A stretch of 64,000 nt of DNA from Agaricus subrufescens (lineage: Eukaryota; Basidiomycota; Agaricomycetes; Agaricales; Agaricaceae), in contig CM057057.1 in NCBI GenBank assembly GCA_029945375.1, positions 5,890,001 to 5,954,000 on the forward strand, read 5' to 3'. The notes under the pieces were generated by a model. The model was given only the letters and a program-made list of their open reading frames with translations, made no database searches and had not been told where the DNA came from. A program made the translations under genes and the position numbers. Of the stretch, positions 3,088 to 59,447 are shown one piece after another. How positions within the stretch are numbered: position 1 is the first letter of the stretch; every line of letters begins with the position of its first letter.

Positions 3088-5268
3088 ATGGTTGAGGGCA
3101 CCGTCCCCAACAACGTCAAGGACGACTCTTCCTCTGTGTACGGAGGCGCTAGCCTCTTTCGAGAGTCAAGAGCTGTGTCCGACGATGAAAAACGAGCTGT
3201 CCGTAAACTGGACTATACGGTCCTCCCTGTGATGACGATGTTCTATTTTCTTTCATTCCTGGTAGGTTGCATGTCTTTCTAACCTATATAAAATATGTTC
3301 ATAACAGTTCACAATTTCAGGATCGCTCCAACATCGGTGAGAGGAACTGTAATGCGAAATTTAGTGTTTGATTTCAAACGTCTTTCTGTAGGTAATGCGC
3401 GTGTTGCAGGTTTGCAAGCAGGTTTGGGTCTTACCGACCACCAATACCAGGTCGTCGTCACCGTCCTCTACGTGTAAGGGTACAATCTCTCCGTTGTAGA
3501 CCATCTGAGTCATACCTTACCTGTTAGGCCTTACATCCTCTCCGAGCTGCCATCTAATCTTCTCCTGCGATATGTCGGGCCCAATATCCTCATGCCCACC
3601 GTCCTTACGATCTGGGGGATAATCGTTACACTCCAAGGTATGTTCCTCACTTCACACTCGCATCAACCCTGCATAAACTTATACTAATATCATATGCAAA
3701 GGACTTGTCACATCTTATGCCGGTCTGGTGGTTGTGCGAGCTATTCTAGGAGCCATCGAGGGTCCCATGTTTCCTGGAATAGTGCTCTACCTGTCTGGTT
3801 TCTACACTCGGCGCGACTTGTCACTTCGGTCAGTTAGGAATCTTGATGAGTTTTGCTTGGTCTCATTTTCCTCTTCTTAAGTATCGCTCTGTTCTTTTCG
3901 GCGGCATCAGTACGTATTTTTGCTTTCACAAGAATATATATGTATTCAGATAACATTTTATGTATCCAGCTTTCGGGGGCTTTTTCAGGACTATTAGCAG
4001 CCGCTATCCAGAACATGGATGGTGTAGGTGGTAAACCAGGCTGGGCATGGATTTTCATTCTCGTAAGTAGTGGCTCACTCAACCCTCTCCATACATCTGC
4101 TCACCTGTCCCTCAGGAAGGTTTATTTTCGTTCTTGATGGGTCTTATAGGATACTTCCTCGTCCCTGCAACGCCTCAAGACTCCAGATTTTTAACCCAAC
4201 ACCAGAAAGACCTGATCAAATTCCGGCTCGAATATGACCGTCCATCCGTTACTCCCAACATTCCCTCTGACAAGTTCTCCGTCCGCGAGATCTTCCGTTC
4301 CATGACGTCAATCCAGGTCATCATCATGTTCATCATGTTATTCTTCGATGGAACGACGCTTTATGGATTGGCTAATTTTGCGCCTTCGATTGTGAAGCAG
4401 TTAGGGTTTAGTGCTGTCAAGAGTCAGTTGTTGAGCGTTGGACCATTTGCTGCTGGATTTCTTGGTATGCCTTGTCTCTCTATCTGCAGAGCTGCTTCGA
4501 TCAATTCTTGCAAATATAGTAACCCTTGTTACTGCTTATTTCTCTGATAAATACCAAAATCGTGCTGTCCCGACTGCAATAATTGCGAGTCTCGGTGTGG
4601 CCGGTTTCGTCATGTATCTCAGTACGTTCCACCTCTTTTTTGTGCTCGAATTCCAACTGACTTGGATAAATCTTCTCTCTAATCAATCAAAAGAAACAAC
4701 CGATAAATTTGTAGCTTATGGATCACTGTTCCTCACTATTCCGGGAGCATACGCCGCCGCCCCGGTGGCTTCGGCATGGATGGCTAATAACTCGGAACCA
4801 TACTATCGACGTGCTTCAAGCATAGCTTTTGGCTTCATTGCAACTAATTCTGTGCGTCCCTCTTTCCTTTCCTTAAATGAGCCACGCATTAAAACATCGA
4901 ATTTTCACCAGGGCGGTATTCTGAGTACATGGCTTTTCCCGACTAAAGAGGGACCAAGATTTAGAAAAACAACGATATTAGATATCTCTTTGTAAGTCAT
5001 CACCCATAACACAATCACCCTCTCAGTTACTAAAAAAGCACATCCCCCTTCCTCTTTCTCTCCGTGGTTGTTTTGCAGCCAATCGTTCATAATTGCTCTG
5101 GCCGCTTTCAACGTTGCAGTCCTCCATTACAAAAACAAGCGCAAGCGACAAAACCGGGATAAGATACTTGCACCATATATGGATGGAAACGAAAAAGACC
5201 CAGATGCGTCTCTGAGAGCTTGGATAGAGCTGGGTGATAAACATCCTGATTTTGTATACTCTTTCTAG
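3088..5268 (+). CDS. MFS transporter, allantoate permease (Dal5-like) family
   Basis: Plasma-membrane anion:proton symporter of the fungal ACS/Dal5 family by sequence pattern. The start is an ATG at 3088 followed by a hydrophilic N-terminus, then the family signature KLDYTVLPVMTMFYFLSFLDRSNIGNAR in transmembrane helix 1, interrupted by introns. A 16-nt exon (3321-3336) encodes most of DRSNIG and is confirmed by that invariant motif. Further helices include the YILSELPSN and GPMFPGIVLYLSGFYTRR region, the central loop after FLVPATPQDSRF, and the final helices around FFDGTTLYGLANFAPSIV. The C-terminal tail is basic then acidic and ends HPDFVYSF. About nine short introns. It is the complete member of a tandem pair whose upstream copy ends at 319. 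Substrate is not deducible. Confidence 0.9.
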
Positions 5269-11944: not shown

Positions 11945-14900
11945 ATGTCTACAACAGACGTAGTCCCTCAATCCGTTTCCCAAGGCCTCGCCATGGCTTC
12001 TCCGCACATGCAAGGTGCATTTCTTTGTATGCTTTCACGATAATCAGCCGTTCATGATTGTCGCAGTTCTCCCTGGTTCCGGCAGCCTCTTCTCCGGAGC
12101 CCACAACTTCACTATAACTAATTCCATCATGATGGAAACTCCAGGAGAGGATAAAATACGCTATGGTGAGGATCGCTATGTCATCTACTCGAGAATTCTA
12201 CTGATTCGTCTTGTCTTATCCCTAGCTATGGGATTGCTTCTAAAGTATATCATCGATGGTGCAGCTCATGATGATTCTTCACGCCAATACTCTCCCAGAT
12301 GTCATCCCGGCACACGTGAAGCAGTTCTCGAATTACTCCTTACCTGGTTCAACAACATCTCCCGCTTGAAATCCCTTTTCCTGCTGAGTGGGCCTGCTGG
12401 GGTCGGCAAAACTGCCATTATGCAAACCTTTGCGGAAGAAATTGGGGATCGCGTCGTTTCTGTGTTTGTTTCGCGACCAAACAATCGTGATGACCCAAAC
12501 CGTATCTTCGTTACTATCGCGAATCAACTCGCTCATCGTATTGAGGCCTACCGGAACTATATCGTGGACCTAATCACTATCAACCCCGACATTTTCATGA
12601 AAAATATGAACACTCAATTCCAGGCCTTCATCACCGAGCCATTCGTAATGAGGAAGATTGGAGCGGGTGGGCCACCCGTGGCCATCTTACTGGATGGACT
12701 TGACGAGGTCGAGGGTGTGGACCCGCAACGGGACATTATCCGAATCATTAGCAAGTTTACACGGGAGCATCGTGATGCGCCCCTCGCGTGGATTATCGCG
12801 AGTCGTCCGGAGCTCCATATAACCAACACGTTCAAAGAGGCCTCTATACAAGGCCAGTTTGAGTCACACTCTATCTTCATCGATGCCCCGGATGCTCGTG
12901 ATGATGTTCGACGCTTCTTGGTTGACAGCTTCCGCACTATACGAGACGAATTTCCTGGCCCTACCTCGGATGATTGGCCTGGAAATGCTGTCCTCGCCAG
13001 ACTAGCTGCTGCTTCCTCTGGCCACTTCATTTTTGCGCAAACTGCGATTCGTTTCATCAAAGATCCTGATCACTCTAATCCTATCTCACGACTCGATCGT
13101 GTCTTATCCGCTATTGATGGTTCGAAGAATGTTCCGAGTACGGAGCAGCCTTTCAGGCATCTCGATAACTTGTATAGGGAGATTCTCTTGAGAATCCCAC
13201 CTGAGTTGTTACCCATAACAAAACTCTTGCTTGGCCTGGCATTGTCATTCCGCAGCGACACTGCTTTAGGGCTTTCCGCTTGGTCAGGATCTAGGACTCT
13301 CAGAGGCATGGCCGTGATTCTCCAGCTAGGGCTTCATCAAGTCTATGCTGCTCTCACGAAATGTATATCGACACTTAGGATACCGCCTTGGGAAGAAGCA
13401 CACACAACACCATTGACCTTCTTACACGCTTCTTTCCCCGACTACTTGACAGACGCACAAAGATCAGGAGAGTTCTATATTGATGTGCATGATGTAGAGG
13501 TCGACGCACTATTGGGCTATCTCAACTTGTGGTATACATATTTTGGGGAGAATACTGGTATGTTTGGGTATGCTGATGATCATGTTTAGAGAATGCTCAT
13601 ATTGGTGTTCAGCCTCTGGTACTAATTCGTTTAAAAACAAAATACAAGGAATCTCGGAAAAAGACGCTACGCTATTCACCACAAGCATTCTCGAGGATAT
13701 GGGTCAAGCACTAGTGAATCAGATGGTTGAGAGGCATGAGGCTCGTGGAGGGGTCACGTCGGAGTCCCAGCGAAAGCACAATGAGTTTTTAAACTCCTTA
13801 CAAAACATTAACATGATTCATCTATGGAAGTACAACCATGGTCCCCTCGCTCGATGTCCTGACATCATATTTTCATTTGTTAAACGAGCATTCGAAACTT
13901 GGGGGGTAATATCATACATAAAATCAAGTGTTTCACACTCTCACTATTGCTACAGGAATATCCACACATGGCTGGTAATAGTGACATGTTTAAGAAGGTC
14001 CATTTGAAAGACCTGAATATTGACTATGACAATAATGAAAATTATACAGTTGTAAAGGTAAGTATGTCAGTTACTAAGGCATGGTCTGTGACTGACCATT
14101 TTCTCTTCCACAATTCCTGGATCAGGATGTAAGTCTATCTGTTGGTGACTTGGAATCAGTGACTCATCTTCCTCTTCCATCATTCCTGGATCAGGATGTA
14201 AGTTCATTTGTTGGTAACCTGGGATCAGTGACTTATCATTTCTTTTCCACAATTCCTGGGTTAGTCTGTAAGTCCATCTGTTGGTGACCTGGGGTCTGTG
14301 GCTCATCAATTTCTCTTCCACAATTCCTGGATTAGCCTGTAAGTCCATCTTTTGGTGACCTGGGGCCTGTGGCTTAACAATTTCTCTTCCACAATTCCTG
14401 GATTAGAATGTAAGTCTATCTTTTGTTGACCTAGGGTCTGTGGCTCATTAATTTCTCTTCCACAATTTCTGGATCAGCCTGTAAGTTCATCTGTTAGTGA
14501 ACTGGGATTTATGACTCACCATTTCTGTTCCATAACTCCTGGACCAGATGGTAAGTCTATCAGTTGGTGACTTGGGATCTGTGACTCATCATTTCCTCTT
14601 TCACAACTCCTGGATCAGTATGTAAGTCCATCTGTTGGTGACCTGGGTATGTGGCTCATTATTTCTGTTCCATAATTCCTGGACCAGATGGTAAGTCTAT
14701 CAGTTGGTGACTTGGGATCTGTGACTCATCATCTCCTCTTCAATAATTCCTGGATCAGCTGGTAAGTCCATCTGTTGGTGACCTGGGGTCTGTGACTCAT
14801 CATTTCCTTTTCCATAATTCCTGGATTAGTTTGTAAGTCCATTTGTTAGTGACCTGGGGTCTGTGGCTCATCATTTCCTCTATTACAATTCCTGGATTAG

Positions 14901-15708
14901 CCTGTAAGTCCATTTGTCAGTGACCTGGGGTCTCTGACTCACCATTTCCTTTTCAACAATCCTTGGATCAGCTAGTAAGTCCATCTGTTGGTGACCTGGG
15001 GTCTGTGACTCATCATTTCCTTTTCCACAATTCCTGGATCAGTTTGTAAGTCCATTTGTTAGTGACCTGGGGTCTGTGGCTCATCATTTCCTCTACTACA
15101 ATTCCTGGATCAGCCTGTAAGTCCATTTGTCAGTGACCTGGGGTCTGTGGCTCATCATTTCCTTTTCCACAATTCCTGGAAATCAGTGGGTAAGTCCATC
15201 TGTTGGTGACCTGGGGTCTGTGACTCATCATTTCCTCTTCTACAATTCCTGGTTCAGCATGTAAGTAACTCAATTCATGAACTGCAGTTTATAAATAATC
15301 TTTTCATTCCATTTCTCAAGTTTATGGATAATCAGACAAAACTGTTTTTGCAAGAATCACCAGATCTTCCTGTGCTTATATGTGGAGCAGTTTTCAATGG
15401 CCAAGTTGCTTTTTTTGCAGGAGATAAATGTGGGAACAGTTATCATATTGTTCCTTATGTTAAAATTCATAAAGACATTAGTAGAATAGTCAGGTGATAC
15501 ATAGGAATAATCATGTGATCTCATATATACTTGCTGCATTTCTTTCTCTTGTCTTCAGTTGTTCCTATCACCTGAAGACTCATATGTATTTATGTCATAT
15601 ACAGTCAACAGGTTATGGGCCTTGCTATCAACCAACTGTAGGATACATATAGATCTCAAACTGTTAGAACAGTACATTGATACTTACAAAGCTCTGTACA
15701 AATTATGA
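11945..15708 (+). CDS. NACHT-type STAND NTPase with a C-terminal extension read through a single-codon exon array
   Basis: Proposed exons: 11945-12014, 12067-12165, 12226-13557, 13613-13905, 13956-14057, seventeen 3-nt exons inside 14126-15260, 15321-15488, 15559-15708 (TGA 15706). All junctions keep frame; total 754 residues. The ATG at 11945 is chosen because only it joins in frame to LFSGAHNFTITNS, the usual mushroom NACHT lead-in. Then KYIIDGAAHDDSSRQYSPRCHPGTRE, Walker A GPAGVGKTAI, Walker B AILLDGLDEVEG, and the winged-helix-like region to FLHASFPDYL. Family role: nucleotide-driven oligomerising switch in heterokaryon incompatibility or innate immunity. The extension (GISEKDATLF..., ETWGEYPHMAGNSDMF, then LFLQESPDLPVLICGAVFNG and the end HIDLKLLEQYIDTYKALYKL) is not recognised. 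The NACHT part is secure; the joining to the array and last exons is inferred from frame, and a separate gene starting near 13.7 kb is the alternative. Confidence 0.6.
14058..15320 (+). repeat. tandem array of ~71-bp intron-like units, each separated by exactly 3 nt
   Basis: Eighteen GTAAG donors start at 14058, 14129, 14198, 14268, 14339, 14410, 14481, 14551, 14622, 14691, 14762, 14833, 14904, 14975, 15046, 15117, 15190 and 15261. The first seventeen units end in YAG (mostly GGATCAG) after a pyrimidine tract, with a CTCAT-type branch-like motif about 28 nt upstream. Between each YAG and the next GTAAG lie exactly three bases: GAT GAT TCT CCT AAT CCT ATG TAT ATG CTG TTT CCT CTA TTT CCT TGG CAT. 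Unit lengths are 69-73 bp. Higher-order structure is visible: units 7-8 resemble 9-10, and 11-13 resemble 14-16. The flanking sequences 13956-14057 and 15321-15488 are open in the matching phase. Confidence 0.9.
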
Positions 15709-17053: not shown

Positions 17054-17272
17054 AGGCTCCTTCCCAGTCCCTCACTGAACTTGCAAATCATGTGAAGTGA
17101 TTACAAACTTCATTTGGCAAGCATCAGTGAGGTGCTGGAGACATATGTGAATTGGCCATCACCAAGCCTCACACCCACTTTCTAACATACTGCATTAGTA
17201 CAAGCATTAAACATATTATTTCTGGAAAACCAATTAAGCTATTTATATACCATCATGTAGAGGCCTACTGCC

Positions 17273-20200
17273 ATGTCCCAGATCCCAGCTCAGCAGCTCA
17301 AAGAACCCATCTCACTGTGGACATCCAAGTGTATCCAGGATCTAGTTCAAAAAAGATTTAATAAGCAAGCTTGTTGGTATCAAATAGAAGCCGCAAGGGC
17401 CATGTATTCCCACCAAGATGTGATTGGCTGTGTCCAAACTGGGGCCAGCAAAACTCTATCCTTCTGGATCCCTTTGCTCAGGGCCAATGAGGACAAACAC
17501 ATCAAGATTCTTTTTGTTATCAGTCCTCTTAATGTGCTTGCTCAGGATCAGGCCAGGGAGCTGCAGAAAGTTGGGATCTTGGTCATTGCTGTCTCTGCCA
17601 AAAATGCATCAGCAAAGACATTCAAAGTATGTACCTTGTTTGACACCTGCAAGCCCAGGTCTCTCTCTCATTGAAAATAGGATCTGGAGTCTGGAAAATA
17701 TCAAGTCATCATTACCAACCCTGAAATCCTAGTCTCAAGTGACAGACTCAAGAAACTATAGAACATGTCATCTTTTACTCAGTGCTGTTATATTCCGTTT
17801 CCAGAACTTTCCAATCATTCCTGACGTTTCCTTTTCTATCTAGAATGTTCCAATTCCATTTCCGGTACATTCCAAGGAATCCCGCTGTCAAGTTTCCTTT
17901 TGATGGGATCCACTCGGGACCGTTGTCTTTTGGGTTCCTCTAATTGGTAAGTCCGCTTCCTGGAACCGGTAGTGGTTGGCCGGTTATGCCATAGTTCCTT
18001 TCCAGGACTATGGTTGCGCTCCCACGGTCGCTCTATGACCAACGCAACGCGGGCCATAACTTTCCAACGGCCAACGCAACTGTATCTGGATTGGTACTCA
18101 TTCCTATTGCAATGCGATTGCCATACAGTATCTCTATTCTGATTCCTATTTCTATTATCCAGAACTATTCCTTTTCTGTACTTTACTCCTGTACACCTTT
18201 GTATATAAGTTCCGCATTCCTGTATCTATTCCTCAGTCTGAAATTGACTTAGATTATATTCCCTCTTGATTCCTACCTTTCCACTAAGTGTCCTGCAACT
18301 CACATTCTTTTCCGCTATTGCTCTCTAGGCATCCAGAACCTGCTGGAGGGCACAGTGCACCTTTGTGTCGCTGAGGTCAATGCCTATCCCCAAATCGGGA
18401 CCGCCTAGTTCTGACTCTGCGGTTGTAGTCTTAACAAGTGCATTCTCACATTCATTTTTGACAAGGCCCACTGCATAACTCAGTGGGGCAAATTCAGGAA
18501 GGCATATCTCACTGTTGGGATCATCAGGGGCCTCATACCCCATTTCATGCCTTTCTACCTTACCTCCACAACTTTTCCAGTACCTCTACTTAATGAAACT
18601 TGGAAGCTCTTGCACATGAGTTCATCAAACACAGTTGATCTGTTGTGTTCAAATGAACAACCCAATATTGCATTGATGGTTCATGAAATAGTCTACCCCT
18701 CATCTTTGTATCACAATCTCAACTTCCTCATACTATATAATTGGCAAGACAGCATGCCAAAGCCAAGAAAGTTCATTGTCTTCTTTGATAATATCAAAGA
18801 ATCAGAACAAGCAACGGTTTACCTGCAGGCATGACTACTCAAGGAATATCACAACAAGATTACATACTTTCACTCAAAACCATGAGTGCACAGTATCACA
18901 AGAAGACATTTGAAGAGTTTCATAAAGGGAATATTTGGGGTCTTTTTTGTATGGATGCATTTGGTCTCATAAGTCATATGTTACTTAGAGATACATACTA
19001 ATGTATAGCCCCAGGGGATGGACATAGGGGACATAGAAATCATTGTCCAATATCGAGCAACATGTGATTTCTGTACTCTATGGCAACACTTTGGTTGTGC
19101 AGCACAATGTGAGGGGGTGCAAGGGGTTGGGATGTTATTGGTGGAGAAGAAGGACACCACAGCAAAGTGAAAAGGGAATGCTACATCTAGTCTCAACACG
19201 GTGTACTAAGAACAATGAAGAAGGTGAGAAAAAATGTCAATGGCAAACTTATGACCTAGACAAGTCTGAGTCCATGCTTGTCAAGGAAGAACAAGTGCCC
19301 AAGATACAAGTATCATCTGAGCCTGCCAAAGAATGGATGTGCGAAAGGAAGCACTGCTATGCAAAGCCAGAGATTGCCCCAAAGGATCCAACAAATGCAA
19401 AGAAATGGAAAGCCCTGGGTGTCATACTGGGGACCACTATAGATGACTATATAAATCTGCTGTCATTTATTTCTTGTTGTCATATTGTCCCCCAGTTATA
19501 TTTCAACAATGATGAGTGGAGTGAGTCTGACTGTTTGAAGTGTTGTACCACTAAACTTTATTTGATTAGTCACTGAAGGACATCTCCACTGCAACCCTGA
19601 AGCAACTGGTGGCTGCCAGCAATGCAGGCCCCATTCAAAGAATGTCTGCTGTGACAGGTGCCACCCTGATTTCTTTGTTGACTTTTTTGTATCACCCACA
19701 AAACAACTGTCCACTCCCCGACATTCAACACTCCCTATTGACTATTCAAGAGGTCCAGACCACCAGACATTCTGTGATGCACTGTTCCAGTGGCGTGACA
19801 ATCAGGCTGTGCTGCAGCTAGGGGAGGACATTGCTTTTGAGTTTGGTGCAGAGCTTCTGATGTTGAACAAGACAATGTCTCATATAGTTGATTGCTGGGC
19901 TTTTGCAAAGATTGCTGATGTCTCTGACTTGCATAGACAAACACGCTGGCCAGAGGAATGGATCAACACCTGCAGTCAATCTTTAATTGACTTGACTCAT
20001 GCCCATTGTCACACAAAGGCTTCTCAATTGTTTGCAACCCCTGTCCCATCCTCATGTACACCTATAAGCCAATCATATACCAACACCCTTCAAGATGAGT
20101 CTTATGCTGGCTCTCTTGATGTGCTGCAAACTTTCCTTGATACTGCTCACCCTTTTTTACCACCTCCAGCACCACCCTCACCACTGGTACCCTTTACAGC

Positions 20201-20756: not shown

Positions 20757-23210
20757 CTAGCTTCCAAAAATTGGCTTGTCTTGGTTCTCAGTTTGGGCTT
20801 GCATGCTCACTTGATTTCTTGCTTTGAGAATTTGTGCTTTCTGTGTCTGTTCAACACTCACTGTCAGTCTGATCATTCCAATTGCCATTGTATTTGCTAC
20901 TTTGCATCTGCTGTCACAGCCTGGAATAAATTTGTTTGCTTGATGTTTTTGAATGTATTGTGACAACCTATTGAAGGTAACCTTCATTTTGGGCAGTGAA
21001 TGACAAGTTGTCTTGTGTGATAGACAAAACATTGACTCAAACTGAGAGTGAACATCTTTGTAAACTTTGATCAGTGGTGAAGCTTCCAGCATTTGATGTA
21101 TGCTATGGTTTGATCCTGAGCCACCAAAGATTCTTTTAATATATAAGTTGTTATGTTCAATCACCCAGTCCACAGCTTGAAAGTGGTCTGGTTTTCCAGT
21201 GGGATTGATGGAGGAATTGAAGCATATAGCACAGCTGTAGCAAAGGTAAGCTTCCTCATTATTACACAAATTGAACACATACACTAATGGCTTTGGATAG
21301 ATGATATACATGTTCTCAAGGTACTGCCAAATCTCTCCTGCATATTTGACTTTGCCGCATCCCATAAAGTAATACATCCAAATTGGTAGGCAGCAATCAA
21401 GTCTTCTGATGTCACCATGGTTCATTGCATATGTAGTTTCCTCATATAATAAAAAATCTTTGTTCAAGGTCTTGGCCATTTCAAAAACTTTGTTGTGTTT
21501 GTTATCATCTTGCTGAACCTCACAGAATGAACTTGAAGGTGCAACATAATATTTGATTATTGTCTTGGCCACTTCAACTAAGTCCTCCCAAGTTGGGTTA
21601 GAGTCGGCCCATTCATTGAGAGATGACATGCCATATTGACATTTAACCTCCTCATGCCATGCTTCTAGATGGTTAACTATCCTGGTATGGAGGATCACTT
21701 CATGCAGCTGGTGGAATCCAGGGTGGGTTTCAATTTCTCACTTTTCAAGTGGCCAAGTCTCACTGACATACTTGATGAGAGCAGTGGAAACTTCCTTGGC
21801 ATCTGGACTGTCATTGATATGTTGCCTTCAAATTGCATCTGCACAAGCCATGTGAACATGGAACCAACTGGGACAGTATATGACTGGTTGGAACCATTTA
21901 AAAGAGGATACATCAACCATGCAAGATGCTTGAAGGCTCTGTATTAGCTTTCCTGTTCCAAGATCTCCAAAAACTAAAATAACTTGATTTCCAATATCAA
22001 CAGGTTTCTTTTTGTTGGTCAGATCTTCACTAGGCTCATCTTCTGGGTGAGCAACTGTGTCTGCAACCTCTACTTCTCCTACATTGGCTTGCTTAAAAAA
22101 TTCCTGCACAACAGTGGCAGTGTTAGCAGGAGTATTTGGCCCAGTTTCCAAAGCACAAAGTGGAACCTGCTTTGTTTTTGAAACAGGTATGCATTCAATA
22201 TCTTCAGGTGAACCAAGCTGACTCCTGAATTTGCCAAAAGCTGGTGGTCCATATTCAACCAGGTCACTGAGGAATTTCCATCTATTGAAGTGATTGTAGG
22301 AGGAGAGGTTCTTCTCATCACATTTATCCAATGGCAAGGCTGCCATTAACTCTTTCATAGTTGCAGGTAAGGGTGGATTGAGTCTGAGTTTGTGAAGGGT
22401 ATCCAAGAAGGCAAGGTCATCTTTTGTGATACCATGGTTTAATGGGAACATGGATGCTGTTGTTAGGTGTACAAGGGTATTGCTCATGGAATACTCCTCT
22501 GTAGGCCTGGAGTGGGGGAGATTGATGTCTAGGTTATCATATGCATAAGCCATCAGCAGTGTTTCTCCAAGTATCTTCATTTCATCATTTGCTTCTTTAG
22601 ATATATTTGCCATAGCACAATTTATTGTTTTGACTGCAACAGAGACCCCGATGTGTGCTAGGAACTGTTGTACGTGTTCTGCAACACTGCATGATTGAAG
22701 AAATACACCAACAAGGGCTTGCAACAGGTTTGCCCATTGATTGACCACCTGCATCATAATGCTGATGCAGGTAATCTTCTTCTACAGTTGGTAGTTAATA
22801 AACTGTTTTGTAAATACTGAGCAATGACCTACAATTTGTATTAATGCATTCCATCTATTTTTGAGTTGGTCCTTGATGTCCTCTGGTATGTCCATTAGCT
22901 CATCTGCTCTCTGATCAAGAATTGCATTCAATTCATCATCTTTAACATTTCTGCCTCCTACTGGCTCGACTGGCTGTTGATCAACAGTTTCCTTGGGTTT
23001 TCGTTGTTTCACTCTCATTGCTCTATCACTTTTCCACCACTCAGATTGGATTGAATCAGATTGCAACAGCTCCCCCACAAATTCCCACAACTCTGGTGTG
23101 TAGTTAATAATGCCTTCTTGAATGTGGCTGATTGAACATTTTTTCATTTGCTCCACTGTCATCAATGTGGCTGTAAACAAAAGCCATGTTTGGGCCTGGT
23201 GAGCTCGCAT
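20757..23210 (-). pseudogene. DUF6589 transposon-associated protein gene, decayed
   Basis: Reads on the minus strand in three blocks. The N-terminal block ends DQLKNRWNALIQI. A probable intron leads into MMQVVNQWANLLQALVGVFLQSCSVAEHVQQFLAHIG, LLMAYAYDNLDINLPHSRPTEE, MFPLNHGITKDDL and VILVFGDLGTGKLIQSL. The last block contains YAMNHGDIRRLDCCLPIWMYYFMGCGK, NPTGKPDHFQAVDWVIEHNNLYIKRIFGGSGSNHS and SPLIKVYKDVH. These are typical of the DUF6589 family that is abundant in agaricomycetes. TGA codons replace conserved Trp (after ADAI near 21.83 kb, and again near 21.75 kb), so it is dead. It faces the helicase pseudogene tail to tail within the same element-bounded segment. Confidence 0.8.
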
Positions 23211-24407: not shown

Positions 24408-27365
24408 ATGGGCGTAGCTGGCCTCTGGGATGTACGTTTCTCTCTCCCACTATTCAAATCCAATCTCCCATTCTCATCTTCTCTTCAGGTTCTCAAACCC
24501 GCTGCCAAAACCAGGTCTCTGACAGAGCTTGCCGTCAAAGAGGGATTTCAAGCCAACCCAAAAGGTCTTCGCGGCTACCGAATAGGCATCGACGCAAGTA
24601 TCTGGTTCTTCCATGCCGAGTATGGAAAAGAAGGCGAAAATCCCGTCTTGCGGACTTTGTTTTTTCGCTGTGCTACACTCATGAAGGCACCCTTTCTTCC
24701 CCTCTTTGTGTTTGATGGGCCTAAGCGTCCCGATTTCAAGAGAGGAAAACGCATCAACAAGTCTTCCAACAAGCTTATTACAGGCATGAAGACTATCGTC
24801 GAGGCTTTTGGATTTGAATGGAGAACGGTACGCTATCCCCCGCTTCCTTATCTCATAGTAGATTGTTCAAGTGTGTATCCCAGGCCCCTGGCGAAGCTGA
24901 GGCCGAACTAGCCTATCTCAACCGCATTGGCGTCATTGACGGTATCCTATCTGACGATGTTGACAATTTTTTGTTTGGAGCGTTGACCGTCATTCGCAAG
25001 TGAGCTATTCTTTCCTTCAAACATTCTTCGTCATCTAATCCCCTGAGATAGTCAGAGTAACAACCTATCCGGAAACAAGGCCAACCCGGTGTTAAACTCT
25101 GAAGGCAAAGATGACAAGAACCACACTCGTGTCTTTCGTTCAAACGATATCCAGGATCATGAGGATATTCAACTCAGTCGTGGTGGCCTTATCCTCATTG
25201 GGTTACTGAGCGGAGGTGATTATGCAGAAGGACTGAACAAATGTGGGATGGTTACCGCTCATTCCTTGGCTCGTTGCGGACTCGGAGATACTCTCTTTGA
25301 AGCAACAAACAAGCTCTCACGAGAAGAACTAGCTGATTTTCTCGATGATTGGCGTAATGAACTGAAGCATGAACTGAAAACCAACTCCAAAGGTTTTTTG
25401 AAAAAACGACACATCTCCCTCGCAAATTCCGTACCAGATACCTTTCCCAATATCGACGTCTTGCTCTCCTACGCTCAGCCAATCACCTCTGAAAGCCTCG
25501 GACACACCGGCAGAAACCCCACTATAACATGGTCCAAGGAACCCAACTTTGCTTTACTGGCCGCTGCTTGTGAACTCTACTTTGAATGGGGTTACAAGGA
25601 AGCTATCATCAAACGCTTCAGGACGATCATCTGGCCTGGGGCCGTCCTACGGATATTGCGACGAGCAGTATTGGACGTGGACCAGATCTCTGCTTCTCAG
25701 TATGATGATGAAGACTACCGCACGCCATCCAAAATGATCGCCAAACATTTTTCAAATATGCACTTGGACGATGAACATACTCCTGAAGTTGAGGACTCTG
25801 ATACGAATCTCATTGTATGCATCTCTCTCGAACGAAATCATGTATCCACTGACAAATTACTTGAATATCGAGTCGAAGTCGCACCAGCCCAACTTGTCCG
25901 ATTAGCAGAATCTGGCATCAAGGGTCTGCGCCAACCAGAAGGTCCGAATGAGTGGGATTCTGATGAAGAAGAGAATGCGGATGATGAAGATGGTGGTGGT
26001 GGTGGTGGTGGAAGTCAGAAGGAGAAGAAAGCCACAGAACCAGTTGACTCGGAGTGTCATTTACGACTTTGGATGCCTGCCTGTATGGTTGAGATCGTGG
26101 AGAAGAATCTGGTCAAGGCGTTTCAAGAGAAAAAGGAGCGAAAGAAACAGAAGAAAGCACCTTCGAAAAAGAAAGCTGTTTCTAAACCGGAACAATCGAC
26201 GCAAATATCTGGAACCAGAATCCTTCAGGATGGGACACTCAACGAATTTCTTCCTCAGACGCCCTCAAAACGTCGACCCCAACGATCCCCTTCACTTGAT
26301 GTCAGAAGGGAAGAAGAGGAAGAGAGTACAGAAAACGAGGGTGAACTACCTGTTATACCCGGCATCGCTCTTGCCAAACGTTCAGCTCCAATCAATACAC
26401 AACATTCCTCTTCTCGAGTTGTTAATCCATCTAGGGATAAGGGAGGGGCTGCGACCTCTAATAAATGCACCCTGCAGTCGGGTTATTCCTTGTTAGAAAC
26501 CATTGAAGATACGCTCGCGTTAAACTCAGACGATAATGATGATGATGGACAACCTGTCCTCGCGGGTTCTCGACGCCCGGTCCCAACTACCATCAGACAG
26601 TCCTCTCAACCCATTGGAACATCCAAAGTCAAGCATACAGCTTCTCATCAAACTGCTCCCCGATCGGCCCCCTCTTCGCGCATGGTTTCAGCTATGCCTG
26701 CGTTGACTTCAGAAGATGAGGGTGAACTACCCGTCATACGTATCAAATCTTCGGTTCCCGCAGCCACTAAGCCCTCATCTTCTCGAGCCACAAGCACCTC
26801 TAAGATCCAACAGGTAGCGGCAATTTTCGATGAACGCACACCCCCTCCATCCTCCTTACCTTCCTCGAAAATGATTGAAAAAACACTCGCACTAAGTGAT
26901 TCTGATGAAGAGTTACCAGCCGATGCATATCAGACGGTACAACCAATGAGAGTGTCCAAACCCAGTAAGATTCACGGATATATTTCCCTTTCTGACGACG
27001 AGAACCCCAAACAACGTTCCCTACCCACAAGGCATTCTCAAAAGAACAGCAAGAAATCCGCACAAACGACGTTGTCATCTTATCTAGAAAATGCCCGTAG
27101 ACGGCCGGAGAGTAGATCAGGCTCGAGCGATAGCCAACAAGTCCCTAAATCACCTCGCAAATCAAGAAAACAAATTTCTCCACGACATAAGGTGCCTGAT
27201 AAAGGAGGCCCGATTACTATAAACATCTCCGATGACGAGTCTGATACTGGATATACTAGTATCTCACAACCAAATGTCGCTCCGCTCCAACTAGCTCGCG
27301 CTAGGAAAGCGGCTACCCCCATACCAAGATCTACAAACGTCGACGACGTTATTGATTTGACTTAG
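24408..27365 (+). CDS. YEN1: GEN1/Yen1-type Holliday junction resolvase
   Basis: Rad2/XPG-family nuclease that cuts Holliday junctions symmetrically in late mitosis. Exons: 24408-24431 (24 nt), 24489-24827, 24884-24999, 25052-27365. XPG-N: MGVAGLWDVLKP, GIDASIWFFHAEYG, LFVFDGPKRPDFKRG. XPG-I: TAPGEAEAELAYLNRIGVIDGILSDDVDNFLFGA. H2TH region: LSRGGLILIGLLSGGDYAEGLNKCG. A chromodomain-like segment follows around LLEYRVEVAPAQL. The long C-tail is basic then acidic, with a poly-Gly run, lysine-rich stretches (nuclear import) and repeated acidic-hydrophobic motifs resembling SUMO-interacting motifs: GELPVI (twice), GYISLSDDE, ITINISDDESD and the extreme C-terminus VIDLT. The transposon copy ending at 24346 leaves only 61 bp of native upstream sequence. 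Confidence 0.93.
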
Positions 27366-27479
27366 TTTGTACAGTTTAAAAAAATGAACAATGTATATTG
27401 CTATGTTGTACACTACCCTTGAAACTAGTTAACATACGGTACAAATAAATTGTCCGTTTACAACCCATGAGAGATTGAT

Positions 27480-30400
27480 CTAGAAGGTATTTGTGAAATC
27501 CCGAGAAGATTCTTGACCAAAAATACCCTCGGGAGTTTCAACTCGCTCTTGTTCGGGAAGTTGGGCCATGAAGCGACGAATAGATTGTAAGCGTGCAGAC
27601 CAATTGGTTGTCACTTCGACGCGAGCGGTATCTTTTTGAGTTTCGGCGAACACTGAAGCAAACCAGTCCGCCAACAAACTAAGCTGGCGAACTAAAAGAG
27701 GAAGGTTTTCGGCGGATATCAACTTGAAGCACCCTACTGGCGCAAATTCCGTCATGCCAGGAGCTTGCTGAACAGTCACTTTAAAGTAATCATGATCGTT
27801 TAGAGTAGAGAAAGCCGCGACTGCGCCGAGAGAATGAGGTTCGATTAAGATGTTCACGAATTGGAATTGAGTTGTCAAGGTGTCGAAACGGTAGGATCCC
27901 CCGGAATCATTCCAAACAATCCTGACGTAGTCGTTTCCGATGTGGCGTTTTTTGAAGTTGAAATGCGGATCGTGCTCATGAGACGGCATCATGGTCGCAG
28001 TATGATACAAGATTTGTCCTATATCGTCCCACCAGGCGTATGCATACTCTCCATCTTCGTCCGGATCGAGGCCTCCGGCGTAAACGTCGACTTGTCCTCG
28101 TAAATTGACAAGTCGACCAAGGCCTTCAAGGAAGTGCGTGTATGCGGGCGAACCATGAGAATTTCCAAGAATTTCTCGTTCATCAGTCTGCCCAGGAGCA
28201 ACGTACATGATGCCGACTTTGTGAGTATCTATCACAGGAATCCGATCAAGTGTTGAGAGAAACCGTTGTAGCACAGGGGAGTCCTCCACTTTTCGCGCGT
28301 TGAGATTTCCAAAGGGATAACTAGAGAGTTGTAATGCAACGTATGATGGATCTAGGGCTACGTCTTTTCGTCTCTGGGATGGAGCCGATTTACTCCAGAC
28401 GTATCCGGTAATTGAATCAGGTCGCGGTGGCTCAGTTGAATCGTCGACTTTTTGGGGAACCAAGGCACTCTGTAATTCATCCTATTGCAGTGGTGAGCAC
28501 GAGAAAAGTCATAGTAAATGATACGCACTTCTGAATTCTGTCTGTCATCTTCAATTGCCCCCGTGGCCGATATAACCTGCGTAGGCGTTTTACCCAGCAT
28601 GAGACCTGCAGGTACGGACACGATATCCGGTGACACATCTCCAGGGCCCACCATCGGAACATTCTCGATGTGACAAACTAATTTTGAAAACCCAGATGAC
28701 CGTCGGGAAAGAATTTCAACCCAGCCTGCGCGTGGTAGCGTTCGAATAGTAACGACTGCTGTGCCTACTATCCATGACTTCGTCGTCTGAATAACCCCTG
28801 AGGGACTAGGATCGGAGGGGTGGCTAGCGGGATTCAGAATGACCTCGCTAAAAGCTGAATTCGCGGGACGTGGATCAGCAGACGCAAAGGCATTTCTGGC
28901 AAGCCAATCAAAGCACACTTCAGTTGCGATATCAACCTCTTTCTTTGCCTCGTTCGCGAGTAGCAGTTGTCGGGTGATGTAGGGTATGTGTCTGGGACGA
29001 TCCGGAAGTTTGAGAGCCAGGAACCAGACGTATACAGTTGTGTACGACATGATGCGAACGTATTGTGACAGGGCCCATGATATTGTCGGTGATGCGTTCT
29101 GGCGATTATAGTGTTGCAGATATTGTAGAGCGACACCAAATACCATCTTATAGTCTGCCTCCGTAAAGTTCGCATATAGTGCGGGGATGGTTCCGACGAT
29201 AGTGAGAAACCCTAGAATGTGGACAGACATATTGGGATTTGACATGATCTGCGACAACTTCTCTAAGATTCGCGGTAAACACTTTGTGACAGATATTCGA
29301 AGTTCGAATGCGGATAGAGTCAGAGCATGCAAACAACATTTGATAGTCGAAAGTTGGCCGTCGAGTCCCTGCTGGAAAACTTCGACCAGAACATGACGTT
29401 GCTTCGGTTCGAAGCATTTTCTGTAACTAACTAGCACAGATAACGAGCGGTATGCCAGCCCTTGTGCATCCCTGGGCTTTAACCCAGGCGGCCATGCTAC
29501 GACGTGAAAACCCAATTCCCCATTCAGAATTCCAGTACAAAACACGTTAAGAAGGCGCGAGATGAGTTGACTGCAAAGCGGCCCACAGAAGAGATGTTTG
29601 TTGGCCAGTTGAGTAGGTAAATGGCAAAGCACATAGGATAGGACATCCCAACTAGTCTCTTTCTCCAGTATGCCTATGACGACCTTAAGATATTCAGAAA
29701 TTCCTAACACAAGATCATTCGGGCCGTCAATACTATATGATATGAGCGCTTCGCTGGAGGAATCACTGTCTGCGATCACAAATGGAAATTTCTCTGGATA
29801 ATGCCAGAGGGGCGAACGCGGTTTTCTGGTAACTTCAGTAGACGAAGTTCTGGCAGGAGCCCGAGAACGACTGCGGCTTCCTGTTGACCGGGATAATCTG
29901 CCAATGCCATGCCCACTCCGTGCCTTCTCTTCCCGCTCCTGAACATTCGGGCGTGACTTTCTCGTTTCCGAGTAGCCGTCCTCTGGATCCTCGATATGCC
30001 TTTCTGTTGCTGGGAGAGACGACCGGCCGATCAAACTTGACAAGTGCGATACCAGGCCATCCTTATCAAAGGATTTGGAGATAAAGAAGATGTTGTGGTC
30101 GCTGTCAGCGCGGAGTCGCATGAGAAACTGGAGAACAGTGACCCTGCCCCTCGCAGACCGCCCGTTCGCTAAAATGCCCAGGAGAATTTTGTAGAGGCGA
30201 AGAGCAAGGCGATGTAGGTGACCCTGAAGCACATAAGAGGTGAAGGATAATTGAGCAAAAGCGTCCACGAGCGCTGAGACTGCCGATACCACACGAGGTA
30301 AAGATTTAGGCTTCTCGGGTTCAGGTACCACTTCCGGAACATCCTCTGTGATAGGTGGTTGGATCGATTGAGATCGGGAAGCGTTGCCGGAGGTAAAAGA

Positions 30401-33030
30401 TGAGAGCAAGGACATGACAGAAGGGATTGCGGATTCCTTGTCTTTCTCTTTGCCAATACCGTGAAACTCGGATTGCATACGGGAAAGAATAGGAGAAACG
30501 AGATTCGAGGAAGACGGAATACTCGTTCCGATGGAAGGGGATGGCAGCTGTGACTCGCCCGACAGTGCTGATTGGGCATCGGCCCTATCTGCTGCTTCTT
30601 CCACAGATGGTTCAGAGGCTACCGTCTTGAGTAAATCAATGATAGCGTTAATATCATCGCTCTCTCCGTCGGAGGATTCAGTTGCTCGAAGTACAATCTC
30701 CTCACCGAGCACTTTCCAAAGGGGACCACCATCTTCACTCTCTATATCTGGGGCTCCAACCCATTTCTCACAGAACCTGAGAACCAGATCTGCGAGTGGT
30801 CGACGATATGATTCCATATCCCTCACGACGTCGTAAACGATAGCGAGTGCTTCCAAAGAGGCACTTTTCGTTAGAGGGCGCTGGGAGCTGAGTGCAACCG
30901 AGTTTCCAAGTAGATTCTCCCAATTTTGCAACCAGTCGGGAGAGGTAGGGGATAGGTCATGTTGATCTAACATGAGCTCAGGAAGCCGCGCAGTGTCTGT
31001 GTCTGTGAGGTGTTCGGCGATGGAAATTAAAGTGGTCGAGAGAAGAGGGTTTAAGTTGCTGGTATGATCTCTTGCAAGTAGAGAAGTGATCGATTTCAGC
31101 AAGGGCGTAGGTGCGCTAATAGGGTTGTCCAGCGGAATTATGTACGGAGAACCATCCGGATTCCTACAAAAACAACGGTTAGAAGCGCGCTGATCATTGA
31201 AAACTTTGCTCACCTCAAAGAAATGACATATTTACAGAGATTGTATAACACTCCGCCAACAAAAGCTGCTTCCTCGTCATTCAGATTCGGATTATCGTCT
31301 TCTCGAGAGTCGGCCTCTTGCAAGAGATCCTTGAGCATCCCTGCAGCTTCTTCTAGAATTTTGTCCACCTGATGGCGTTCATCGCCCCAGTTACTTCTGA
31401 ACAATTCCTTGTCCATTTGATTGATACCGGGTGTGTGGGGTCCTTCACCAATCCAATCGATCCATGCAGATACACCGTCAGCCACAGCCGACCCTACTCG
31501 ACGAGGATCCCAGCCGTTTGCTACACTGCCAATACCAATGTCTGCATTTGGAAGGTAGTCGTCTCTTGGCCACGCCTTCTCCATCAGCTCCTGCTCCAAT
31601 TCAAGATGTGAGGGGGCACCGGTGTAGGAATAAGACACTTCTCGTGATATGTACGCCCTCGCTAGCCTTATGATAAGAAGCTGCCGGAGTCGCATTCGCA
31701 TCATTCTGTAACCTCCCAGAGCAGTGAGTAGACCAAGCTGAAGAGGCACTCTTGAAATTTTCTGTGGACTTGGTTGCGATGTATGCCCTCTTTCTTCTAC
31801 TGAGACCATTCCTTCAGTAGGGAACATAGGTAGTAGGCACCGCTTATGAATTCCCACACATGTAGTCGAGTAAGGTCCTGTGTATACAGACACCAAGGTT
31901 TCCAAAATTCGGTCCTCCAATTGTGGCTTCTTGAGTGGTTGAGACAGAACACTGAGACGAGGGAGCGGGGAAGCGCAGATGGCAAGAGCGCGAAATAACA
32001 GAGGCATGATGTTTTTGAGAAGCGCCGGAGATAATGTTTTGATTTGTGTCGAGAGATAATCAAGATATATCGTAATTGCAATCTCGGCGGGAGGTTTAAC
32101 TAGAATCTGGTGTGTGGATGGAACTATCGGCGTAGATGGAGATGTGAGAGATGACATCGAAAGTGAGGAAGTGTTTCGTCGATGTGATCCAAAAGCTTGA
32201 GGCGTTGTTGTTGGATCGGATACTATTGGGGATTCACTCGATAAATCTGATTCCTTTCGAGAGATAATTGAGTGATCGACGAGACTCGCGTAGAAGTCTA
32301 TCATGAGGTGAACGGTGTGCTCTGGAAGCCTAGCGATATTTTCGGTTCGGTTGAGGATATCAGACAAAAACTTGAATAGAACATCTACACTCTTCTCCCG
32401 TTCCATTTGCTCGGACCGATCCAACTCCCCGCTCACATCCAGTAAACCATCGAATGCACCCTTTAGCCACCGTTTTAATAGATCGATTAGGGCGGTTTCA
32501 ATGCCGACGATATCGGTACCATATTTTGTGAGTGCTCTCAGGGCTTTGAATTTGGGCTCCCAAAGATCTGCAGTCCACACAGTTGTAGGACCCAGAAATA
32601 GAGAGAAGAAAGATAGACGATCCGCAGTCTCTGCGGAACCCACTTCTGGGTTCTCCCAGTACGATGAGAGGACGTCGAAACCCACAGCCTGTAGAGATGG
32701 TGGATTATTGGTGTCACATAGAGAAGATATGATCGGTTGAACGGCAGTGGGACGGGGAAGTGGTGAAGCGGTGCTCAAAAGACTTGCAAGAGTTCGCGCA
32801 TGTGCAAGACTCGGGACAGCGGGAGGCCGGAGGGCGTCGATGATGGCAGCCAGGGAAAGTGGCTGGTGGTGGTGTTGGTGTTGATGTGGCATTTGGGGCG
32901 TATTTATGGGAGATGGGGAAGCACTATCGGGTTTATATCGGCGCCAACCGAATGAGGACGCGAATGAGGTGGTATTTGCACGTTGGCGAGGTCGTCCGAA
33001 GCCACTGGCATCCTGCTGTTGCGGGGACAT
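27480..33030 (-). CDS. TSC2: tuberin (TSC2), Rheb GTPase-activating protein
   Basis: Exons on the minus strand: 33030-31214, 31163-28529 and 28481-27480; the lengths sum to an exact reading frame of 1817 residues, about the size of animal tuberin. The N-terminal two thirds are alpha-solenoid, with a Ser-rich phosphosite-like segment (RNTSSLSMSSLTSPSTP). The C-terminus carries the Rap/Ran-GAP domain: VGIMYVAPGQTDEREILGN, FLEGLGRLVNLRG and HIGNDYVRIVWNDSGGSYRF, which holds the catalytic Asn-thumb. With TSC1 this complex turns off Rheb and so restrains TORC1 growth signalling, probably in response to nitrogen or amino acids. No sign of decay. Its 5' end is 201 bp from the next gene on the same strand. 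Confidence 0.95.
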
Positions 33031-49433: not shown

Positions 49434-51314
49434 ATGGACGAGGCGACAAAGAGAGAGATTGGACAGGTATGACATGGTTTTCCGGATGCTGTTGTCCGGG
49501 TTTATCATTTTTGCAGCATTTTGTGTTTGGATTTCACGGGTATGATGTCAGTGAGGACGTAAAGTCCCTTATCACCAAGTATTTCGTCGGGAATATCATT
49601 CTCTTCAAGAGGAATGTTCAGAGTAGGGTTGTAAAACATTGTGTGACAAGTATTAATCTAATGAGCCATAGATGCGGAACAAGTACGACGCCTGATCAAG
49701 AATCTACAACTGCTTGCCAAAGAGGCGGGGCACGAGAGGCCGTTAATGATTGGAATCGACCAAGAGAACGGTATGGATCGATGTACATACATCGCTGGAT
49801 GGGTACCAACGATATTTACAGGCTTGGTGTCTGCGTTCTCGTCTCCGACTGCTGGGACACAATTGTGCGTAATCTCATCTGGGACGGAGGCTCGAGAGAG
49901 GTTGAACAGAGATTCGTAGCCCTGGCGCAATGGCTCAAGCGGCCATCGGGGACCTGGAGATCACGCGAGCGATTGCTTTGGGCTGCGGCCAGGAATTGAA
50001 ACTGGTAGGGATCAATTGGACATACAGCCCGGTGGCTGATGTGAACATCAACCCGTTGAACCCAGTCATCGGTGAGTCGAAAGATTGGTGAGGCGAGGTC
50101 TCGACTGATTTACCAGGTGTGAGATCGTTCGGAGGCGGTGAGAAGATCAAACGCGTGTATGTTTAGCGATTGCTGACAAGTGGCGAGCAGATCCCCAGCT
50201 GGTGAGCGACTATGCGATGGCAGCAAGCGAGGGGTTTGTGGCGGCAAACGTGGCGTCATGCGCGAAGCACTTTCCGGGGCACGGAGACACGGAGGTGGAC
50301 TCGCACCTCGCGCTGCCGGTGATCAACAAGACGAGGGAGGAGATTGATGGAGGGGACCTGCCTCCGTTCCGGGCCGTGATCTCGGCCAAGATCCCGAGCG
50401 TAATGACGGCACACATTGCACTGCCACAGGTGACGGGAACGAACGAGCCGGCGTCGCTTTCGCGCAAGATCACGACGGACCTGCTGAGAACGGAGCTGGG
50501 GTACGAGGGGGTGATCGTGACGGACTGCCTGGAGATGGCGGCGATCGCGGGCGGGCCGGGGACCGAGGAGGGGGCGGTGCGGGCGATAGCTGCCGGGGCA
50601 GACATTGCGATGATCTGCCACACGTACGCGCGGCAGGTGGGGGCGGTCGAGCGGCTGTGGGCGGCGGTCGCGGAGGGGCGGGTGGCGATGGACGAGCTGA
50701 AGCGGTCCGGGGCGCGGATTGCGGCGATGAAGGAGCGGTTTGCGGCGGGCGAGGAGGGCGACGAGGAGAGCTTCGGACGGGCGTGGGCGTCGGTGAAGGC
50801 GCAGAACGGGCAGCTGAGCTCGGCGGCGTACCAGAAGAGCGCGGTGGTGTTCAGGGACGAGCACAAGCTGCTGCCGCTGGATCTGACGAAGAAGACGATC
50901 GCGCTGCTGACGCCGCTGCGGGGCCGGATCAACGCGGCGGTGGACGCGGGGCCGGTGCGGAACACGGGGGTGCCGCAGGACGCCGAGTTTGCGCGGGTGC
51001 TGGAGGAGCGCTACGGGGCGACGGTGCGGCACGTGGTGTACGGGCCGGACGACGCGGTGGCGGACAGCGGGCGGGCGGAGGTGGTGCTGTTTGTGACCCG
51101 GAATGCGCTGCGGGCGCCGTGGCAGTGGGAGGTGCTGAGGAAGACGGTGGGGACGCTGCGCGGGCGGGTGCCGGTCGTCGCGCTGGCGAGCTGCGACCCG
51201 TACGAGCTGGGCGTGGTGGGCGACGAGCTGGGCCGGGCGCGGGTCGCGTTTGTGGCGACGCACGAGTGTAGCGTAGAGGGCATAGTGGGAGGCCTGTCAC
51301 GTGTAGCATTATAA
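49434..51314 (+). CDS. GH3 beta-N-acetylglucosaminidase (NagZ-like)
   Basis: Retaining glycosidase that removes terminal N-acetylglucosamine, probably in chitin or glycoconjugate turnover. The short first exon [11 protein letters not shown] joins [33 protein letters not shown]. Then GIDQENG (substrate loop), the [49 protein letters not shown] block, and [18 protein letters not shown], the NagZ-type His-Asp catalytic loop. The nucleophile Asp sits in VIVTDCLEM. After the barrel comes a second alpha/beta domain to GGLSRVAL. No signal peptide is seen, so it may be cytosolic. From about 50.2 kb the gene becomes strikingly GC-rich with G/C-ending codons, unlike its own 5' exons. It ends 29 bp before the next ATG. 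Confidence 0.9.
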
Positions 51315-51343
51315 TGCGAGCAGTCTTTGGCGAGAGCGCCGAC

Positions 51344-56700: not shown

Positions 56701-57341
56701 GAATTTTTTAATCTCGGAGCGGGGGATTCCAATGGACTCCATGATTTGGAACTGGTAGGTGAGGCCGGTGGATTTGGCGACGAGCTTGCCCTTTTTGGCC
56801 TTGGACTTGTCGACCGTGTCGCGCTCCTCCTTCTGCTTGGTCTCGGTGTCGACCTGCTCGAAGTGCTCAAAGTCGGGGCCAAAGAGCTCCATCTCGCGGA
56901 TGACCTTGTCGGCGGAGGCCTGGCGGGGGTGAGCGACGCGTCGGGGGGAGACTAGGGAGGCGTACCTTGATGGGCATGCCGGTGACATGGAAGCCGTGGG
57001 GGAAGAGGGCGCGCTTGCCGAGCATGCGCTCGTAGCCGGTGGCAAACTCGATCTTGGAGATGGTGAATGCGTGGCCGAGGTGGAGGCTGCCGTTCATGTA
57101 CGGGAAGGGGTAGTTGCCGAACCATTTCGGGTGCTGCTCGCGGATCTGCTGCGGGGAGAGGCCCGCGAGCTGGGCGGGCGATGGGGCGTCGACCTCGAAG
57201 AGGCGCTCCGATCGCCAGCGATCCTGGCAGCGGCGCTCGAGGGCCTTGAGGGCGTCGCGCTTGGCGGTCTGCGGGGGGTGTCAGCGGGCCGTTCCGCGGC
57301 AGAAAAGCACCCACCTGGCCGAGTTCGATGGTCTGCGCCAT
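53702..57341 (-). CDS. CDC60: cytosolic leucyl-tRNA synthetase
   Basis: Class I aminoacyl-tRNA synthetase charging tRNA-Leu for cytosolic translation. ATG at 57341 (MAQTIELGQ) with a first short exon, then [20 protein letters not shown] motif is in [20 protein letters not shown]. The editing (CP1) domain includes [18 protein letters not shown] and [19 protein letters not shown]. The KMSKS loop is [46 protein letters not shown]. The anticodon-binding and C-terminal parts run to [13 protein letters not shown] (TAA 53702-53704). No presequence, and the long eukaryotic/archaeal-type insert is present, so it is the cytosolic form. About eight introns. Divergent from Cdh1 over 76 bp and convergent with the VHS gene over 77 bp. 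Confidence 0.96.
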
Positions 57342-57417
57342 TATCGACCGGGGCAGCCGCATCGCAGGACTGAGTCAGGCGGGTCACGTGCGCGGTGCGA
57401 GTTGGCTCTCCCCCGCG

Positions 57418-59329: not shown

Positions 59330-59447
59330 TGAGCACAGTGCTTTTTTGATTTATTATTCGTTTTGTTTTTACATCTTGCTCTGTACTATCGCATCACGTG
59401 AATTGGAACACTGTTCACGCGTGGGTCGCGTGTGCTCACCACCGCCG

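Follow-up and report, generated by a model that had tools for sequence, protein, structure and literature searches.

Can a single codon, set between two introns, serve as an exon many times in succession within one gene? This question is raised by a tandem array at positions 14058-15320 of a 64,000-nucleotide (nt) stretch of the genome of Agaricus subrufescens (GenBank assembly GCA_029945375.1, contig CM057057.1, positions 5,890,001-5,954,000 of the forward strand; this whole stretch is called the window below, and window coordinates count from its first letter). The array lies in a gene that probably encodes a fungal NLR-like receptor, and it had been read in a first-pass annotation of the same DNA as seventeen candidate single-codon exons separated by near-identical introns; both the limits given there and the peptide spelled by the 17 triplets, DDSPNPMYMLFPLFPWH, proved correct. 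The genomic data strongly support an array of single-codon exons between two coding exons of phase 0. We consider it highly probable that each codon is spliced in, that the codons together build a variable loop of the receptor, and that the diversity of this loop arises mainly in the germline, by shuffling of units and selection.

Anatomy of the array and of its host gene

All units of the window array show the junction YAG-NNN-GTAAG (17/17, between 14123 and 15262, at a spacing of 69-73), as the first-pass annotation had it, and Tandem Repeats Finder describes the array by a period of 71 bases, 16.7 copies and 82% matches. One extra match to this short pattern stands isolated in the window, at 27581. 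The triplets read, in order, GAT GAT TCT CCT AAT CCT ATG TAT ATG CTG TTT CCT CTA TTT CCT TGG CAT. The inner introns (n = 16) are 66-70 nt long, mostly 68, and retention of 14 of them would shift the frame, their length not being a multiple of three. With all 17 codons joined, the gene model is a single open frame from 11964 to the stop, composed as follows:

11964..13557, + strand: NACHT/STAND NTPase exon (Pfam and gene model); start codon not fixed, first in-frame ATG at 12054
13558..13612, + strand: ordinary intron, 55 nt (model by inspection); an intron lies near the same place in the non-array paralogues L034 and L035
13613..13905, + strand: exon 3 (...NINMIHLWKYNHGPLARCPDIIFSFVKRAFETWG), conserved in paralogues
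13906..13955, + strand: ordinary intron, 50 nt (by inspection and script)
13956..14057, + strand: exon 4 (EYPHMAGNSDMFKKVHLKDLNIDYDNNENYTVVK), with a codon boundary at its end
14058..15320, + strand: array of 17 candidate single-codon exons set apart by 18 introns of 60-70 nt each
14126..15260, + strand: the 17 candidate codon exons, with first bases at 14126, 14195, 14265, 14336, 14407, 14478, 14548, 14619, 14688, 14759, 14830, 14901, 14972, 15043, 15114, 15187 and 15258
15321..15497, + strand: exon 5, predicted C-terminal end of the receptor (FMDNQTKLFLQESPDLPVLICGAVFNGQVAFFAGDKCGNSYHIVPY...), with a codon boundary at its start and a stop at its end

The open reading frame (ORF) directly upstream of the array (11964-13586) matches the Pfam families NPHP3_N (4.3e-14) and AAA_16 (5.4e-9), both above cut-off, and NACHT at 9.5e-6, just under the cut-off of that family. 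A GPAGVGKT motif together with the NPHP3_N match identifies the P-loop NTPase that characterizes fungal NLR/STAND receptors. No Pfam repeats, ankyrin included, were found in the C-terminal ORF pieces of the window, and the WD, ANK or TPR repeats by which such receptors are also recognized are thus not seen here; C-terminal repeats of these kinds are common in fungal NLRs, though not universal. The nearest database proteins are JGI entries, followed by proteins of Agaricus bisporus and then of Leucoagaricus, Leucocoprinus and Macrolepiota. Judged from its sequence, the host gene of the array probably encodes an NLR-like receptor with an N-terminal part, a NACHT ATPase, a helical region and a small C-terminal alpha/beta domain.

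A structural model indicates where the variable residues might lie. AlphaFold2 modelled P0023, an A. bisporus paralogue without array, from 38 sequences with a mean predicted local distance difference test score (pLDDT) of 85.5; the whole model matches CED-4 (E 2.4e-5) and ORC/Cdc6 ATPases in the PDB, and its C-terminal domain is alpha/beta. At the site that corresponds to the array, the model shows a loop of low confidence (residues 593-597 below 50), preceded by a strand (585-589) and followed by a helix (609-625). As the aligned exon borders suggest, the array may fill or lengthen a C-terminal loop of the P0023 type.

Array loci across the genome

When the 44.65-Mb genome was searched at the DNA level with the array, 44 matches resulted; the places fetched contain 24 loci that hold three or more units each, the window included. 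The arrays comprise 4-30 codons, with a median of 18 when three copies or fragments are left out. A pattern of paired units (TCAG-NNN-GTAAGT-N50-66-CAG-NNN-GTAAGT) matched the whole genome 240 times and the reversed control 0 times, which rules out a chance repeat. The same number, 240, was counted within the fetched loci. The first-pass annotation had held that occurrence of the 71-bp repeat outside genes would speak against exons; the array loci account for all pattern matches, and a NACHT region lies upstream in 23 of the 24 loci (over more than 300 residues in 21, in part in L018 and L028), the other one, L027, being a truncated copy in which the downstream exon is preserved. A repeat dispersed beyond this gene family is therefore ruled out as well. 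Since arrays with TAG directly ahead of the codon escape the paired-unit pattern (0 matches in L012 and in L014), a sequence-divergent array of that kind elsewhere could be missed. Contigs end within arrays at L014 (end of contig C27) and L033 (start of contig C25); arrays thus probably interrupt assembly, and the genome may hold more of them than were assembled.

Exon 5 was also searched for in the whole genome without bias, which gave 29 matches, three of them with an internal stop. Two matches, L031 (C13:1363500-1373000) and L032 (C1:5827500-5837000), have no array but only a match to the last unit followed by exon 5; they were excluded from all counts and look like relics of array genes. 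Both adjoin ORFs of Copia-like retrotransposons (family named from reading the ORFs). Counts over 22 loci, as used below, omit L023 and L033 (copy, fragment), and counts termed nonredundant omit L009, L014, L018 and L024 too.

Splice signals

Intron bodies were located with a hidden Markov model of the body only, trained on the introns of pattern-positive units, with the splice sites left out. In the 22 loci this yielded 350 neighbouring pairs, of which 334 were near enough for examination, and 317 of these junctions read exactly YAG-3nt-GTRNG; the remaining 17 comprise 10 broken sites and seven junctions of other lengths (four of 12, two of 8 and one of 2 nt). Splice sites and the 3-nt exon are kept in all junctions of L013 (13/13) and L015 (16/16), although the introns there differ by more than 20%. 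The array units are in phase 0, and their splice sites are strong and near-identical. A branch-like YTGAY is present in 226 of 294 introns, where 200 shuffles give 55 on average; the CTCAT-like motif (CTNAY) that had been proposed as the branch signal occurs in 133 of the 294 introns, compared with 139 after one shuffle, and was rejected.

Arrays with units of 72 nt contain introns of 69 nt, and 88 of 163 such introns carry an in-frame stop. In L016, whose units are 72 nt long, no stop interrupts the codon's frame over long stretches, and a retained stop-free intron of 69 nt would insert VSTSVGEVWSVIDYFSSTNLMHQ in frame. Further isoforms through retention of stop-free introns are thus possible in L016.

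Codon composition and variability

Among the 383 triplets of the 22 loci, 329 are NNT, one is NNC and none is a stop, although a few (the leading TTG of L013 and of L015, and another TTG in L013) are probably intron-internal motifs; under a looser filter, L013 and L018 show one TGA each, which derives from an intron-internal motif away from the unit junctions. The lack of stops, noted earlier for the window array, partly follows from the NNT codons, which cannot be stops. When bases were shuffled within loci, 3.2 stops were expected for 324 triplets and none occurred in 2% of the runs, and when they were shuffled over all loci, none occurred in 7%; taken alone, the absence of stops is a weak argument for coding triplets. 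First bases are mostly C (139/324) and G (117/324), and AG at codon positions 1-2 was seen once compared with 4.7 expected, as might be the case if a second 3' splice site were avoided.

The codons vary far more at their first two positions than at the third. In pairs of units within arrays of the 22 loci, position 1 differs in 65%, position 2 in 71% and position 3 in 17%, compared with about 20% on average and at most 44% for intron positions (GT, AG and the fifth intron base are invariant in this comparison by the search pattern). Even in the 154 unit pairs with identical introns the three positions differ in 55%, 63% and 9%, so that positions 1 and 2 come close to saturation where the introns are the same. 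Variation at positions 1 and 2 and not at position 3 is the pattern expected from selection on amino acids. Purifying selection acts on the downstream exon, in which the median ratio of nonsynonymous to synonymous divergence (dN/dS) is 0.47 (119 of 120 pairs), and the first 45 codons of this exon contain no stop in the 16 loci tested (16/16), a result that is partly built in, since a protein motif was used for finding the exon.

Origin of the array

Five non-array paralogues (L034-L038), read by eye, have one phase-0 intron of 50-62 nt at the site of the array, and L039 has two introns there with an exon of 21 nt between them. In alignments with the array unit, the second intron of L039 surpasses all of 2000 shuffles, which neither its first intron nor the five single introns do. 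A phylogenetic tree was built from 45 NACHT sequences, and the array loci in it (21 rows) fall into one clade (support 100/100), which also holds five JGI proteins without an assigned array state, so that the label needs three changes on the tree, not one. This clade is adjoined, with weak support (80/66), by L043 and P0006; L043 is a NACHT piece about 6 kb from L039, and the two probably belong to the same gene. Farther out follow A. bisporus P0011 (98/94) and then the single-intron genes L041 and L042 (98/97). The sequences fit a scenario in which the array arose once, by multiplication of an intron.

Exchange between loci and apparent haplotypes

Single-copy DNA of the window (29000-32000) recurs once, near-identical, at contig C25:33383-36383, which suggests that C25 represents the other haplotype of this end of the chromosome, from the second nucleus. 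Between the window gene and its partner L009, 5 of 1500 bases upstream and 1 of 600 downstream of the array are different, and the arrays themselves are set apart by a block of three codons (LFP vs. YMY). L017 and L024 differ by one block and by one unit whose introns differ too, and a block of six codons (CCT CTA TTT CCT TGG CAT) is common to the window gene and L010. In L013 and L018, 16 codons are unchanged (0/48 bases) compared with 38 of 1066 different intron bases (3.6%), whereas most other array pairs with an intron difference of 5-12% disagree at roughly half of their first and second codon positions, or at more, which argues against a simple clock. The block differences and the constancy in L013/L018 indicate that codons move together with their units and can persist for long, so that a constant mutator is not needed. 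Codon diversity between genes and apparent haplotypes is what the genome displays. For L010 and L013, no evident partner on the other contig was found among the matches of the DNA search. The set of NLR-like genes seems not to be the same in both haplotypes.

How the array may work, and alternative explanations

In the explanation that we favour, the spliceosome would read each unit of 60-70 nt as a short intron (intron definition) and join the single codons between them, and the mRNA would then carry a run of 4-30 variable residues. To judge by its position, this run would form an exposed loop that precedes a helix in the C-terminal domain, which is likely the sensor. The array would have formed where one ancestral phase-0 intron stood, through multiplication of that intron; unequal crossing-over and exchange of blocks between loci would keep the introns alike, and selection would keep the codons different. 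Splicing presumably includes the codons, the loop would bind a ligand, and non-self recognition may be the selective force. We know of no somatic recombination of receptor genes in fungi.

The diversity that matters might instead be made in RNA, the codon exons being cassettes of which subsets are skipped, a process that is compatible with the favoured explanation. Phase-0 units with near-identical, strong splice sites would suit it, and the comparable arrays of the truffle Tuber, treated below, have been described in terms of alternative splicing. Much codon diversity, however, already exists in the DNA, between loci and between haplotypes, and the unchanged codons of L013/L018 suggest that codon order matters; moreover, definition of short introns should favour constitutive use. 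Skipping as the main source of diversity is therefore possible but rather unlikely. That the whole array is one long intron, grown like a minisatellite, with relics of splice sites inside and triplets that are never translated, is improbable. Tandem units do homogenize, and removal in one piece would also preserve the frame, both sides being in phase 0, so that the argument for exons is carried by the junctions, the codon variability, the pairs with identical introns and the NNT triplets without stops. If the triplets were untranslated, they should be no more variable than the flanking introns, yet they are, and L013 and L015 keep splice sites and exon length despite their diverged introns.

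A mutator targeted to codon positions 1 and 2, that is, a diversity-generating mechanism beyond mere selection, would explain why the pairs with identical introns differ nearly as much as diverged pairs, but selection that retains old codon variants amid homogenized introns explains this decoupling too. In the window gene and L009, as in L017 and L024, the differences are blocks that changed together with introns and not isolated codons, and the 16 codons that L013 and L018 share stayed constant while the introns diverged, which rules out steady targeted hypermutation as the main cause; we regard a mutator as no more probable than one long intron. Arrays of 72-nt units could, finally, encode a protein of 24-residue repeats with one variable residue each, in which case the units would not be introns. 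The open stretches of L016 would permit this, but the in-frame stops in the 69-nt introns refute it as a general reading, and in the window 14 of the 16 inner introns would shift the frame; this explanation has almost no probability.

Several points weigh against splicing of each codon into a receptor loop. Two protein searches, limited by length and shared words, found no spliced relatives of the C-terminus, for which no Pfam family above cut-off was obtained either when the ORF pieces with the C-terminal exons of the window gene were searched. Retention would be tolerable in the 75 of 163 introns of 69 nt without an in-frame stop, and C is nearly absent at the third base, though a change from T to C is always silent in NNT. 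In addition, the copies are not all intact: the upstream gene is missing from L027, in which unrelated sequence takes its place; L026 yielded no downstream exon, either in the genome search with exon 5 or in the fetched locus; L031 and L032 have a TAA inside exon 5; and L029 (C4:619500-627000, about 3100-5000 on the gene strand) is scrambled, many units being broken by small indels and GGATCAG being replaced by GGATCGG, which reflects either a dying array or uncorrected sequencing errors.

Going beyond the favoured explanation, we tentatively propose, as a view that may well prove wrong, a receptor diversified codon by codon, in which the introns would be handles for recombination, the codons movable cassettes, and NNT, which specifies 15 amino acids and never a stop, a stop-proof library for the recognition loop; skipping in RNA may add variants.

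Genomic neighbourhood

Near the NLR-like gene, at 17261-17671 and 20757-21734 of the window, lie a fragment of a DEAD/DEAH helicase and a piece of a DUF6589 gene, which give the impression of broken or intron-rich genes of mobile-element type. Conserved genes of the window (25047-31228 and 59325-60716) include a GEN1-type nuclease, tuberin and a CDC20/Fizzy-type WD40 protein. Two stretches are rich in G+C (0.68 at 50001-52000 and 0.64 at 56001-58000, compared with 0.49-0.57 in their neighbours), and an ORF for a glycosyl hydrolase of family 3 (50142-51311) lies within the first.

Comparison with known systems and significance

Arrays of 3-bp exons are not new, contrary to the first-pass annotation, which knew of none. 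As reported in four papers, the nank (NACHT-ANK) genes of Tuber melanosporum contain tens of codon-sized or 3-bp exons, and alternative splicing of these exons diversifies the receptors (Iotti et al. 2012, Fungal Biol 116:261, as cited in PMC4986451, PMC10197012, PMC9815663, PMC3689799). The case of the Agaricaceae resembles that of Tuber, as far as the latter is described there: both concern a family of fungal NACHT receptors with tens of codon-sized exons, seen here as gene anatomy in DNA, and the variation in Tuber is said to affect the C-terminal recognition part. It is distinct in that Tuber is an ascomycete whose receptors, by these accounts, have an ankyrin C-terminus, whereas the host here is a basidiomycete of the Agaricaceae with a small C-terminal domain that has no recognized ankyrin repeat and no Pfam match above cut-off. 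To these differences come the measurements made on the Agaricaceae arrays, namely the NNT codons, the homogenized introns, the decoupling of codons from introns and the states with one, two or many introns. No report of arrays of codon-sized exons in basidiomycete NLRs was found in the parts of the open-licence literature consulted, and passages of a paper on Pyronema that cites Iotti et al. mention no microexon (PMC3778014). That splicing can handle exons of only a few bases is reported for Arabidopsis, where a single-nucleotide exon, not an array, is described (PMC4674806).

Systems of near-identical protein repeats are similar in having few hypervariable, selected positions that are shuffled within and between genes, but what is repeated there is protein, whereas in the present arrays it is the intron, and the cargo that varies is a single codon. 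The micro-exon genes of schistosomes, like the arrays of the Agaricaceae, have many symmetrical micro-exons and variable products; they differ in that their micro-exons are longer and their proteins are secreted, and neither near-identical introns nor NLRs are known among them.

If the favoured explanation is true, the Basidiomycota would be a second lineage, besides the ascomycete truffle, with arrays of codon-sized exons in NLR-like genes, and such arrays may have arisen more than once or be widespread, and have been overlooked by annotation. In the Agaricaceae, the series from one intron to two and to an array would be visible, with the recombining filler (the intron) cleanly apart from the selected cargo (the codon). 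The arrays would offer a direct test of the smallest exon that the spliceosome can use in series, and they would bear on how fungi make variable immune receptors.

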